Shown in pieces: positions 10,562 to 13,986 of a DNA stretch of 21,568 nucleotides. Position numbers and translations under genes: made by a program. The notes below the pieces were generated by a model. That model worked only from the letters and a program-made list of their open reading frames with translations, was not told the DNA's origin and did no database searches. Position 1 is the first letter of the stretch. Every line of letters begins with the position of its first letter. The DNA lies in IMG/VR virus record IMGVR_UViG_3300021371_000119, positions 1 to 21,568 of that record; one strand, given 5' to 3'. The DNA is from a virus.

Positions 10562-11686
10562 TCAGAATGCAGAAGGAGCAGTAGCACCAACATACAGTTC
10601 AACGCTAGCAGCAGGGTTCAGGTAATCTGCACCGCAGGCTAAGCGCCCGAGCATCACATCGCCCTGATAAACCACACTTACATCTCCACTGGTGACTTGC
10701 ACCTGTGGACCAATTGCTTCGACCATACCGGCTGCTTCCTTCTGGAAGATCAAACCGCAGGACTTAGCGCCGACTTCAGCAGCAGTACCATAATCATTGT
10801 TGATACCGGTAGAAGCACCAGAGGCATCTTCCATGGTTTCAGCAACGAAAGAACCAGTATTACCGGGATCGGTTACACCAGTGGTTCCGCCGTAAGCAGT
10901 ACCGTACTTGCCCAAGAAAGGAATATTCATGGACTTGTAGATCTTGATACCAGCAATCTCGATGATGCCGTTACCGGACTGCAGAGCAGAGCCCTGAACG
11001 TCACGGTTCACAAGACCATTAGATCCAACTGCTTGGATCAATTCATAGTATTGACGTGGGTTCAATACGGCCACACGTCCGTCGCTAGAGACACCCTTCT
11101 CGTCAAGAGCAGCAGCTGCATCATAGAATGCTGACACCAGGTTAGCAGCAACATATGCATCAGAGTCATTGGTGGTAGAACCTACACGGATCTGTGTACC
11201 ACCTGGCTCAACATAACCAGTTGCAGTGATAGGTGATGCCTGACGTGCACCACGTGCAACAGCACGGAATGCAAGACGGTCATACTTCTCTGCCAATGCA
11301 TAACCGATCTTACGTGAGATCTCGCTACGCAGGTCATAATGAGAAAGTACCTCGTCCAATTCATAGACGAAAGCAGAACTGATCAACAGGTCATCAATGG
11401 TGATCGTCTTCTCAGCCACTGGAGGTGCACCATTGGTATCACCCAGGATGCTGTTACCAGGAGTATGGAACTCAGACTTGGTACGACCAGTGAAGATGAA
11501 CTGCAATGATTTGCCGTTCTTAAGTGTACGCTTCATGATCAAGTCACGAGCGATTGTGTTATTCTGGAAGCCTTTGAACATTTCGCCACTGAACAACTTA
11601 AGGTACAGTGCGCGCTTATCGCCAGCTAGATTAGCCTGACCCAGCTGAGTTAGCTGAGCAGGGTTTACAGTAGATTGAAAAGCCAT
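10562..11686 (-). CDS. Major capsid protein (T7 gp10-like, HK97 fold)
   Basis: 374 aa, close to T7 gp10A (345) and other cyanopodovirus capsid proteins. The N-terminus has AQLTQLGQANLAGDKRALYL then LFSGEM and a Phe/Thr/Asn segment, typical of this family. SLQFIFTGRT and IDDLLISSAFVYELDE follow, as in the gp10 group. It sits between the scaffold/photosynthesis cassette and gp11, with a strong terminator 15 bases after the stop. The start at 11686 is clear from homology, but the leader lacks a Shine-Dalgarno: the bases before ATG are a T/A-run preceded by two overlapping hairpins (separate entry). GC content is visibly higher than in the core-protein genes, as often seen for very highly expressed genes adapted to the host. 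I found no convincing equivalent of the T7 10A/10B frameshift. Confidence 0.96.
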   Translation of the reverse strand: MAFQSTVNPAQLTQLGQANLAGDKRALYLKLFSGEMFKGFQNNTIARDLIMKRTLKNGKSLQFIFTGRTKSEFHTPGNSILGDTNGAPPVAEKTITIDDLLISSAFVYELDEVLSHYDLRSEISRKIGYALAEKYDRLAFRAVARGARQASPITATGYVEPGGTQIRVGSTTNDSDAYVAANLVSAFYDAAAALDEKGVSSDGRVAVLNPRQYYELIQAVGSNGLVNRDVQGSALQSGNGIIEIAGIKIYKSMNIPFLGKYGTAYGGTTGVTDPGNTGSFVAETMEDASGASTGINNDYGTAAEVGAKSCGLIFQKEAAGMVEAIGPQVQVTSGDVSVVYQGDVMLGRLACGADYLNPAASVELYVGATAPSAF

Positions 11687-11695
11687 TTTTTTAAA

Positions 11696-11728
11696 GAGAG
11701 TTATTTTCGACTCTCTGAACGTTCAGAG
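11696..11728 (-). promoter_or_regulatory. Two overlapping hairpins in the leader of the capsid gene
   Basis: On the minus strand a perfect 16-base palindrome, CTCTGAACGTTCAGAG (11728-11713), is followed by GAGAGT...ACTCTC (11715-11696), a 6 bp stem with an eight-base A-rich loop. They share bases 11713-11715, so they compete if both are fully formed. The second stem ends nine bases before the capsid ATG. No Shine-Dalgarno is present. Possible roles are mRNA stabilisation, a ribosome standby site, or a protein-binding operator. Structure is seen; role is inferred. Confidence 0.55.
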
Positions 11729-11801
11729 TTATTTAATTTTATTGTGGTCTGTCCCACCGTCTAGACGGCAAAGGGTATCCGCGTACGGGCCAATGCCAAT
11801 A

Positions 11802-11847
11802 GTGAAGCCGGGACTTGAACCCGGCAGTAAGCCTATTTCTTATTCAC
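11802..11847 (-). other. tRNA T-arm-like minihelix downstream of the short peptide ORF
   Basis: GCCGGG-TTCAAGT-CCCGGC (11825-11807) is a 6 bp stem with a 7-base loop that fits the tRNA T-loop consensus (TTCRANN). Flanking GTGAA (11847-11843) and TTCAC (11806-11802) can pair and stack on it like an acceptor stem. D and anticodon arms are absent, so this is not a complete tRNA. The 5' strand overlaps the end of the 19-codon ORF. It could be a tRNA relic, an attachment-site core, or an RNase P/RNase Z processing signal. Confidence 0.5.
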
Positions 11848-11892
11848 AGTTTTGTTGTACTTGTTGCCGCGATAAGTGAGAGTAACAGTCAT
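11833..11892 (-). CDS. 19-residue peptide ORF controlled by the upstream glutamine-riboswitch-like RNA (DUF4278-like)
   Basis: ATG at 11892, stop TAG at 11833, encoding a 19 aa basic peptide that begins MTVTLTYRGNKY. The LTYRG-x-Y core resembles the start of DUF4278, a small family common in cyanobacteria and their phages. It lies 15 bases after the pseudoknot strand of the RNA motif at 11908-11957, the position in which short ORFs are found next to Downstream-peptide RNAs. A weak GGA lies eight bases before the ATG. Its function is not known. Short length alone would be poor evidence; the riboswitch context and the familiar motif make it credible. The coding end forms part of a T-arm-like minihelix. 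Confidence 0.6.
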   Translation of the reverse strand: MTVTLTYRGNKYNKTVNKK

Positions 11893-11907
11893 TGTTAATT
11901 CCAATTA

Positions 11908-11957
11908 CCTAGCCCCCGTTCCATGACTAGGCGGCCTGCGTCCTAATGGATGAACGT
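11908..11957 (-). ncRNA. Downstream-peptide-type RNA (glutamine riboswitch class)
   Basis: Minus-strand elements in order: CGTTC(A), TCC-ATTA-GGA hairpin, CGCAGG, a loop with CCTAG, CATGGAACG closing on the first CGTTC, then GGGGCTAGG. CGTTC/GAACG gives the closing stem of a three-way junction, and CCTAG in the loop pairs with the downstream CTAGG (5 bp plus a possible G-U) as a pseudoknot. This order and spacing are those of the Downstream-peptide motif, which with glnA RNA forms the glutamine riboswitch family of cyanobacteria and cyanophages. A short peptide ORF follows, as expected. The third stem has one non-Watson-Crick position (CAGG against CATG). Expected action is control of translation of the downstream peptide by intracellular glutamine. 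Assignment is from recalled consensus, not a covariance search. Confidence 0.75.
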
Positions 11958-11964
11958 AAGTACG

Positions 11965-12075
11965 TTATTTGTTGTTGTATCCACGTAGGAATTCGATTTG
12001 TTCGTTACGTTTCTTGATGTTTTTTACAATTTCTGTAAGTGGATGTTTTGTTTCCTTTTTCTTTTTATCAGGCAT
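11965..12075 (-). CDS. Small basic hypothetical protein (36 aa)
   Basis: ATG at 12075, five bases after the psbA stop codon, ending TAA at 11965. The 36 residues begin MPDKKKKETKHPLTEIV and end in GYNNK. The N-terminus is Lys-rich, the rest is an amphipathic helix-like stretch (LTEIVKNIKKRNEQIEFLR). There is no recognised family. Tight placement after psbA suggests co-transcription. The stop lies just before the riboswitch-like RNA, so translation of this ORF brings ribosomes close to that fold. There is a weak GGAT 10 bases before the ATG and no strong ribosome site. Moderate confidence that it is translated. Confidence 0.55.
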   Translation of the reverse strand: MPDKKKKETKHPLTEIVKNIKKRNEQIEFLRGYNNK

Positions 12076-12080
12076 AATTA

Positions 12081-13160
12081 TTATCCAATAGATGGTGCAG
12101 TCAGTGCTACCTCAGTGGTAGACGCTGCTGCTAGATCAAGTGGGAAGTTGTGAGCATTACGCTCATGCATTACTTCCATTCCAAGTCCCGCACGGTTAAG
12201 AATATCAGCCCAAGTAGGGACAATGTGGTTCCCGTTATCGACAATGGATTGATTAAAGTTGAATCCGTTAAGGTTGAAAGCCATAGTGCTAACACCCAGG
12301 CTAGTGAACCAAATGCCAAGCACAGGCCATGCAGCCAAGAAAAAGTGGAGACTACGTGAGTTATTAAATGATGCATATTGAAAGATCAATCGTCCGAAGT
12401 AACCGTGTGCGGCTACGATGTTGTACGTCTCTTCTTCTTGTCCAAACTTATACCCATAGTTCTGAGATACCGTTTCGGTCGTCTCCCTAACCAAGGAACT
12501 GGTGACAAGAGAGCCATGCATAGCACTGAACAAAGCCCCACCAAATACGCCGGCAACGCCAAGCATATGAAAAGGGTGCATAAGGATATTATGCTCAGCT
12601 TGGAAGACGAGCATGTAATTAAAGGTCCCTGAAATGCCAAGAGGCATTGCATCTGAAAAAGAACCTTGTCCAAATGGATAGACAAGGAAGACTGCCGACG
12701 CTGCGGCAACTGGTGCGGAGTATGCGACAAAGATCCAGGGCCTCATTCCAAGGCGATAACTAAGTTCCCACTCTCTTCCCATATATGAGTACACACCAAT
12801 GAGGAAGTGGAAGATGACAAGTTGGAAAGGTCCACCGTTATAGAGCCACTCATCAAGAGTTGCCGCTTCCCAGATGGGGTAGAAATGTAGACCAATGGCG
12901 TTTGAAGATGGGACGACTGCTCCGGAGATGATGTTATTTCCATAGAGTAATGATCCTGCGACAGGTTCTCTGATTCCATCGATATCTACTGGTGGTGCGC
13001 CAACGAAGGCAATAATGAAACAAGTGGTAGCTGCTAGCAGCGTGGGAATCATTAGGATTCCAAACCAACCGACATAGAGACGGTTGTTAGTAGAGGTAAC
13101 CCAATTACAAAAGGCTTCCCAGTTATTTAGTTTTTGTGGTCTTGAAAGTACAGCGGTCAT
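12081..13160 (-). CDS. psbA: Photosystem II D1 protein
   Basis: 359 aa, full length, colinear with cyanobacterial D1. Key residues are in place: TyrZ Tyr161, Asp170, Glu189, His190, His198 (P680), His215 and, at the C-terminus, His332, Glu333, His337, Asp342 and Ala344, after which the precursor is cut. All five membrane segments are present. Residue 130 is Glu, as in the high-light D1:2 form. The protein replaces photodamaged host D1 in the thylakoid membrane so that light-driven energy lasts through infection. It lies with hli in a host-derived cassette between scaffold and capsid genes, so it should be expressed with late structural genes. It is flanked by two T-arm-like minihelices. No Shine-Dalgarno precedes the ATG at 13160. 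Identity is certain. Confidence 0.99.
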
Positions 13161-13227: not shown

Positions 13228-13269
13228 AGCTAGGGGAGGAATTGCACCTCCCGTTAAATCTATTTAGCT
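13228..13269 (-). other. Second T-arm-like minihelix, between the small-protein genes and psbA
   Basis: GGGAGG-TGCAATT-CCTCCC (13252-13234) is a 6 bp stem with a 7-base loop. AGCTA (13269-13265) and TAGCT (13232-13228) can pair outside it, with 12 bases between the 5' strand and the hairpin. No T-tract follows, so it is a poor intrinsic terminator. It overlaps the stop codon of the upstream 49-codon gene. The architecture echoes the element at 11802-11847 on the other side of psbA. The rest of the 107-base gap before psbA shows a duplicated CTTACTTA but no promoter I can defend. Confidence 0.45.
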
Positions 13270-13645: not shown

Positions 13646-13986
13646 CAGAAGTTGTACTTCAAACCTGCTTTAGTTCCATAGCCATTGGTGTCACCAGTGA
13701 GAAATGAGAACTCACCGTAGACTGAAAGTGCTTCGTTAATTCCATATGAACCACCTGCTTTACCTGAGAGTTCTACGTCACCATCTTCACCATCGGGTGC
13801 CAACAGTGCAGGACCACCTTGGACATACCAGTTAGCACCTTCGTAACCAACGTGTACATCTGTCACTGAGCCAGAGTAATCAGAGCCAACAAAACCAGAG
13901 TTGGTTTCTACATTGGCGTAAGGTCCAGCCAGTACTGGGTTTGCAGCCAACAAAGTGGCAGGGAGGAGTGCAATAATTTTTTTCAT
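13645..13986 (-). CDS. Secreted small beta-barrel (porin/OmpX-like) protein
   Basis: 113 aa. Residues 1-20 form a signal peptide: Lys-Lys, a hydrophobic core (IIALLPATLLA) and an Ala-x-Ala site (VLA before GPYANVE). The mature part of about 93 residues alternates polar and hydrophobic positions in about six strands (for example VTDVHVGYEG, WYVQGGPALL, LSVYGEFSF, GTKAGLKYNF) and ends in aromatic-rich YNF, the C-terminal phenylalanine signal recognised by the BAM outer-membrane machinery. It is shorter than eight-stranded OmpX/OmpA barrels, so it may be six-stranded or oligomeric. It sits between scaffold and hli and is translationally coupled to hli. A role in the infected cell's outer membrane (permeability, adsorption block or lysis) is inference; the function is unknown. 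Confidence 0.72.
   Translation of the reverse strand: MKKIIALLPATLLAANPVLAGPYANVETNSGFVGSDYSGSVTDVHVGYEGANWYVQGGPALLAPDGEDGDVELSGKAGGSYGINEALSVYGEFSFLTGDTNGYGTKAGLKYNF

Follow-up and report, generated by a model that had tools for sequence, protein, structure and literature searches.

The window, a viral record of 21.6 kb (21,568 nucleotides) that we analysed over its whole length, is a stretch of a T7-like cyanopodovirus genome in which the minus strand carries the late genes. Along that strand, the portal and scaffold genes are followed by an ORF at 13986–13645, an hli-like ORF, a short ORF and psbA. The order 3' of psbA is a 36-codon ORF, the riboswitch with its peptide ORF, the capsid gene and the tail genes. 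A preliminary description of this DNA had placed a glutamine-riboswitch-class RNA between psbA and the capsid gene. The placement is correct, with the addition that the 36-codon ORF at 12075–11965 separates psbA from the RNA, its stop lying 5 nt from the start of the aptamer. Counterparts of this ORF are confined to close relatives, and a PHROG comparison of 11965–12075 gave no match. The features around the riboswitch are:

12081–13160, minus strand: psbA (context), an ORF with a DNA match to annotated phage psbA
11965–12075, minus strand: 36-codon ORF MPDKKKKETKHPLTEIVKNIKKRNEQIEFLRGYNNK between psbA and the riboswitch, from the sequence
11907–11959, minus strand: Glutamine-II (type 2 glutamine) riboswitch aptamer, from the RF01704 match, P2 covariation and conserved PK and linker residues
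11956–11952 / 11921–11917, minus strand: pseudoknot (PK) helix of the aptamer, CGTTC with GAACG
11950–11948 / 11943–11941, minus strand: P1 of the aptamer, in the TCC-ATTA-GGA hairpin 11950–11941
11931–11927 / 11912–11908, minus strand: P2 of the aptamer, CCTAG with CTAGG
11893–11906, minus strand: short linker in which a GGA about 7 nt 5' of the ATG resembles a weak Shine-Dalgarno site, from the sequence
11833–11892, minus strand: 19-codon YRG peptide ORF MTVTLTYRGNKYNKTVNKK, half-DUF4278-like, from the translation and from the YRG peptide after the aptamer in 15 carriers
10562–11686, minus strand: major capsid protein gene (context), an ORF matched by tblastn to annotated cyanopodovirus capsid proteins at up to 87% identity

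The aptamer and its spread among cyanopodoviruses

Searching the whole window with cmscan at gathering thresholds returned a single Rfam match, one copy of RF01704 (Glutamine-II, formerly Downstream-peptide). It lies at 11959–11907 on the minus strand and scores 51.2 bits (E 5.7e-10), above the gathering score of 33 bits. The Infernal comparison proposed in the preliminary description is thus significant for RF01704, whereas the second family it named, RF01739 (glnA, glutamine-I), reaches 15.7 bits on the window RNA, below the gathering cut-off of 35. The pairings that had been read from the letters are all present on the minus strand: CGTTC at 11956–11952 with GAACG at 11921–11917, the TCC-ATTA-GGA hairpin at 11950–11941, and the CCTAG loop with CTAGG at 11931–11927 / 11912–11908. 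One of them changes its name, as the CGTTC/GAACG pairing, first described as a closing stem, is the PK helix in the solved glutamine-II structure (PMC6698751). The PK, the helices and the CGC linker correspond to crystal structure 6QN3, for which residue roles are given (PMC6698751), and the window aptamer has the core segments CGUUC, CGC and AUGGAACGGG (PK, linker C17-G18-C19 and A33-G42 in 6QN3 numbering).

For the analysis of covariation, 42 distinct phage aptamers were anchored on the invariant core, whose segments CGUUC, CGC and AUGGAACGGG are kept in 41, 42 and 41 of them. The P2 helix occurs as 27 distinct arm pairs, with 90% of cells paired; shuffling the arms among the sequences lowered this to 62%, and in 10,000 shuffles pairing never reached the observed level. 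Each of P2 positions 1–4 shows several standard pair types, and P1 likewise varies with changes on both sides. The PK strands are CGUUC/GAACG in 41 of the 42 aptamers; in the remaining one, SS120-1, changes in both strands replace a C-G pair by U-A.

We scanned 22 cyanopodovirus genomes, picked by capsid similarity, with RF01704. Fifteen score over the cut-off with exactly one copy apiece: P-SSP7, P-SSP10, 9515-10a, NATL2A-133, NATL1A-7, P-GSP1, P-SSP2, S-RIP2, S-TIP37, S-TIP28, SS120-1, S-CBP1, S-CBP4 and the fosmids MedDCM-S45-C4 and S28-C3. In all 15 the riboswitch is found between the scaffold gene (or psbA) and the major capsid gene. The scan found none in 7B11-B, S-B28, DSL-LC07, S-CBP2, P60 and Syn5, none in roseophage CRP-114 and none in 14 control genomes. 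In IMG/VR, a scan with an exact consensus pattern, hence biased toward consensus-like copies, gave at least 80 matching stretches, nearly all sharing one order of podovirus structural genes. On nearly every contig that is long enough, this order is RNR, portal, scaffold, (psbA), riboswitch, capsid and tail tube, and it is unchanged around the riboswitch where psbA is missing. Because the element keeps its place across many phages and carries compensatory changes, it stands well beyond chance. The covariance model, the covariation and the conserved peptide described below all support a glutamine-II riboswitch, the class first proposed under the name Downstream-peptide. Two contigs of the viral collection, L026 and L006, lack podovirus markers and are possibly host DNA or another virus; L026 has a host-like aptamer after which no YRG ORF was found, and L006 has a two-motif peptide.

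On a capsid tree the riboswitch trait needs at least six changes, and its clustering is not significant. Since 7 of the 22 genomes are without an over-cut-off riboswitch and the tree needs this many changes, the cassette is dispensable. Its fixed position suggests an old cassette that was repeatedly lost, for which the capsid tree falls short of proof. In S-SBP1 (L088, about 2680–2860) just the 3' part of the aptamer is left, scoring 19.6 bits, and the YRG peptide is retained; this phage is a possible natural loss-of-switch variant. Such a remnant, together with the frequent losses or gains, could be read as the sign of a functionless, decaying relic captured from a host. We consider this highly improbable, as P2 covaries strongly, the pseudoknot residues are near-invariant, the peptide is under coding constraint and the element keeps its gene position across diverse phages.

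The YRG peptide

The aptamer sits in the 5' leader of a short ORF. As the preliminary description had stated, this ORF begins 15 nt beyond P2: its ATG is at 11892, 15 nt after the last P2 base, and 19 codons lead to a TAG ending at 11833. A YRG ORF starts shortly 3' of the aptamer in 15 of 15 riboswitch-bearing isolates and fosmids, and the spacing from P2 to the start codon is short and similar across phages. The window peptide contains LTYRGNKY, which fits the L-x-YRG-x-x-Y motif of DUF4278. Exactly one YRG is present in 94 of 95 phage ORFs, and YRG together with the Y three residues on is invariant in all 60 distinct aligned phage peptide segments. Between 39 nearest ORF pairs, the differences at codon positions 1, 2 and 3 number 63, 25 and 162, with a pN/pS of 0.185, an indicative value since nearest-neighbour pairs are not independent. 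Given the invariant YRG..Y and this ratio, the phage YRG ORF is very probably translated into a peptide whose sequence matters. Phage ORFs of 14–19 codons are common, and many are longer, at 27–51 codons. In several records YRG ORFs of about 33 codons or more are annotated. Those of 16–21 codons are absent from the annotations examined, and peptides of this size are therefore easily missed.

The preliminary description had called the peptide DUF4278-like. The motif agrees with this; the match of the phage peptides to the profile is partial and falls below the Pfam cut-off. Longer phage relatives score 14–18 bits against PF14105 (DUF4278), whose cut-off is 25.3, and the 19-residue window peptide is too short to scan. 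The phage peptides align to the last third of the profile alone. Two multi-motif host peptides that we tested score 33.1 and 42.9 bits, over the same cut-off. The host set comprised 80 loci, mostly from Prochlorococcus and Synechococcus, with one clear chance match in Lysobacter; 71 of the 77 host peptides scored after a same-class aptamer contain two or three YRG motifs.

The capsid leader and tRNA-like minihelices

The region between the peptide ORF and the capsid gene, and the leader of psbA, contain further RNA features:

11802–11847, minus strand: tRNA-like minihelix in the capsid leader, acceptor GUGAA 11847–11843 / UUCAC 11806–11802
11744–11799, minus strand: conserved structured block of the capsid leader, UUGGC..UNCG hairpin..GCCGUCUAGACGGUGGGACAGACCAC, from both-sided hairpin changes
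13228–13269, minus strand: second tRNA-like minihelix, in the psbA leader, AGCTA 13269–13265 / TAGCT 13232–13228 with T-arm GGGAGG-TGCAATT-CCTCCC

The structured block, with the form UUGGC..UNCG hairpin..GCCGUCUAGACGGUGGGAUAGACCAC, occurs in 71 of the roughly 100 loci inspected, and in 9 of 20 sequences both partners of inner pairs in its UNCG-type hairpin are changed. An Rfam search of 11799–11744 gave no match. The Syn5 RNA-polymerase promoter, which we take to be ATTGGGCACCCGTAA, occurs in exactly two copies in Syn5, none of them near the capsid gene, and is absent from the window with up to three mismatches allowed. Because the promoter lies away from the Syn5 capsid gene and is missing from the window, the leader block is ruled out as a Syn5-type phage promoter.

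Capsid leaders of other phages contain additional candidate structures. In the capsid leader of L002, L008, L084, L090 and about 70 other loci, a hairpin GGAGG-CACCUCAGAGUCGGA-CCUCC with a near-invariant loop takes the position that the T-arm minihelix has elsewhere, and the conserved hairpin GGAGGCACCTCAGAGTCGGACCTCC occupies this place in many phages. A second candidate structured RNA, pseudoknot-like and of the form GCUUUCC .. ACGGUUUAAGGAGUGG .. ACCGGAAAGC .. CCAC, lies between scaffold or peptide and capsid in L003, L004, L012, L018, L030, L101 and L103; it is also present in Syn5, which is riboswitch-less.

These leaders bear on the proposal, made in the preliminary description as its new angle, that the riboswitch acts on the capsid gene. 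The riboswitch is upstream of the capsid gene and on the same strand in nearly all loci, an arrangement in favour of its governing the capsid gene and the late operon and so coupling virion production to host nitrogen state. However, the ORF that starts right after the aptamer is the peptide, with its own start codon; the distance from aptamer core to capsid gene varies from 229 to 956 nt; other genes intervene in P-SSP10, 9515-10a, NATL2A-133 and NATL1A-7; and in the window the aptamer is not followed by a run of T. Furthermore, S-B28, 7B11-B, P60 and Syn5, which are without the riboswitch, still have the leader element or a T-arm at this place. Direct control is unsupported because the capsid gene has a separate conserved structured leader of its own. 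The capsid gene is probably not glutamine-switched, and we regard control of the late operon by the riboswitch as very unlikely. A riboswitch terminator was also considered and rejected: T6 follows P2 in some relatives, neither in the window nor in general.

The capsid-leader minihelix consists of the acceptor arms, an inner hairpin UAAG/CUUA and the T-arm GCCGGG-UUCAAGU-CCCGGC. The capsid and psbA leaders each start with their minihelix, whose 5' arm shares bases with the end of the ORF before it; that of the capsid leader lies within the last codons of the peptide. Many cyanopodoviruses have minihelices at these positions with different but matching arms (before the capsid gene GAGUA/UACUC in P-SSP7, AGGUAA/UUACCU in L049, GGUAG/CUACC in Syn5 and AGCAG/CUGCU in L073), and in NATL1A-7 a complete tRNA-Gly takes this place. 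The psbA-leader minihelix is found in relatives too. In 1.64 Mb of phage sequence, counted on both strands and with a canonical closing pair required, there are 24 T-arms in 41 kb of capsid and psbA leaders versus 7 elsewhere, and 3 of these 7 (L031, L073 and L035) stand directly after the YRG peptide. Acceptor-like arms accompany 19 of 20 distinct leader T-arms, compared with 6.6 expected when the upstream bases were shuffled. The folding energy of the leader (11850–11745) is ordinary, with a z of -0.68, and the minimum-energy fold differs from the minihelix. The case for the minihelix lies in its position and its matching arms. In L073 (540–1190) a gene is inserted after the first minihelix, and immediately 5' of the capsid gene there is another, different minihelix.

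Two other identities for these elements were discarded. ARAGORN detected no complete tRNA at 11847–11802, and 11600–12120 has no RF00005 match up to E 5; in place of a tRNA gene between peptide and capsid we see the acceptor/T-arm part alone, a partial tRNA-like fold. The T-arm as an attachment site was dropped because different sequences with complementary arms share the same place. Our best guess, from sequence, is that the minihelices may be processing sites for RNase P or another tRNA enzyme. It is conceivable, and in our judgement rather unlikely, that late mRNA of T7-like cyanophages is cut at the minihelices ahead of psbA and the capsid gene, with RNase P the most likely enzyme, and that in phages like that of the window the cut at the capsid leader competes with translation of the peptide, which would link host nitrogen to maturation of the capsid mRNA.

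The proximity of peptide ORF and minihelix raises the question whether the ORF has a peptide function of its own, or whether its glutamine-gated translation changes how the adjoining tRNA-like element folds or is cleaved and thereby affects the fate of the downstream mRNA. The last codons of the window ORF double as the 5' arm of this fold, the element overlaps or abuts the ORF end also in P-SSP7, L049 and S45-C4, and very short ORFs (14–19 codons) are common, all of which would suit a leader ORF of this kind. It is nevertheless unlikely, since YRG..Y does not vary and substitutions that alter the amino acid are avoided, many of the peptides are 27–51 codons long, and hundreds of bases or whole genes part the ORF from the capsid leader in many phages.

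Proposed function and relation to known systems

Taken as a whole, we think it likely that a genuine glutamine-II riboswitch and a one-motif YRG peptide form a position-conserved cassette, in which the RNA would be an ON-switch, the peptide possibly a mimic of host peptides, and the capsid gene probably not switched. In type 2 switches, as tested in Prochlorococcus, glutamine binding is reported to activate expression (PMC6316151), and the ligand has been proposed to stabilise the PK and free the ribosome binding site (PMC6698751). By extension from the tested host version, high glutamine in the infected cell would stabilise the PK helix of the phage RNA, and this would increase translation of the peptide. 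Given its homology to the host type 2 switches, the phage element is most likely an ON-switch for peptide translation. When 42 phage leaders were folded by partition function, with the PK strands either free or blocked, no fold that masks the start site emerged, and predicted accessibility of the ribosome site did not change systematically (means 0.36 and 0.37). Because this folding test showed no alternative state, the step from the PK to the ribosome site is one that we infer. An OFF-switch, in which glutamine binding reduces peptide translation, would fit the position of the start site near P2 and the lack of any predicted opening of the site upon PK formation, but the tested Prochlorococcus type 2 switch is reported to activate (PMC6316151) and the phage aptamer and spacing are alike; we consider it quite unlikely.

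If the element is an ON-switch, the question becomes what the peptide does. More weakly than for the switch itself, host homology suggests that the phage peptide could be a trimmed mimic of the host DUF4278 peptides with two to three motifs, and that it could act on the same host partner, tuning nitrogen assimilation during infection. The DUF4278 domain is similar to the N-terminal part of IF17, an inactivating factor of glutamine synthetase (PMC6316151). A role for the one-motif peptide as mimic or competitor at the host partner is a tentative suggestion; that the peptide responds to host nitrogen state is plausible.

The RNA class, its ligand, its structure and the association with DUF4278 are already published, and glutamine riboswitches of phages have been noted before, in myoviruses. 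According to a 2018 review the type 2 aptamer is apparently restricted to marine picocyanobacteria (PMC6316151). A literature search that covered few subscription journals found no report of RF01704 in cyanopodoviruses or of its fixed site, and the fixed place of the riboswitch just before the capsid gene appears to be unreported. Many T7-like cyanophages carry, at a conserved position, a host nitrogen-sensing riboswitch with a cut-down version of its peptide. Should this peptide act on the nitrogen control of the host, very common ocean viruses would own a metabolite-gated nitrogen tool, which would complement the known phage photosynthesis genes. The tRNA-like leaders before the capsid and psbA genes offer a separate lead on the processing of cyanophage late mRNA.

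Other phage-borne glutamine riboswitches are known from myoviruses, in the Melnitz phage beside tmRNA (PMC9004378) and in T4-like cyanophages (PMC9964418, PMC9602691); they are glnA-type or of unspecified type and stand beside tmRNA or other genes. With the glnA glutamine-I family (RF01739) the window RNA shares the ligand class and a related core, but it is without the three-way junction. Longer YRG peptides of related phages weakly match PHROG 5049, of unknown function (E 0.0016–0.0043). The closest counterparts are in the hosts. In marine picocyanobacteria type 2 aptamers precede DUF4278 genes, as exemplified by PMM1846 of MED4 (PMC6316151), and the host DUF4278 (PF14105) peptides of Prochlorococcus and Synechococcus share with the phage peptides the L-x-YRG-x-x-Y motif and a start soon after the aptamer. 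The host peptides mostly have two to three motifs, whereas those of the phages have one and stay under the Pfam cut-off. The phage aptamers differ from those of the hosts in a P1 that mostly begins U-CC and in a GGC/UGA linker where the host has UUCGA. With RF01704 itself, the window shares the P1/PK/P2 layout, the near-invariant CGUUC, CGC and AUGGAACGGG, and the short downstream ORF; the phage form is set apart by its late-operon site beside the capsid gene and by a peptide with a single YRG.
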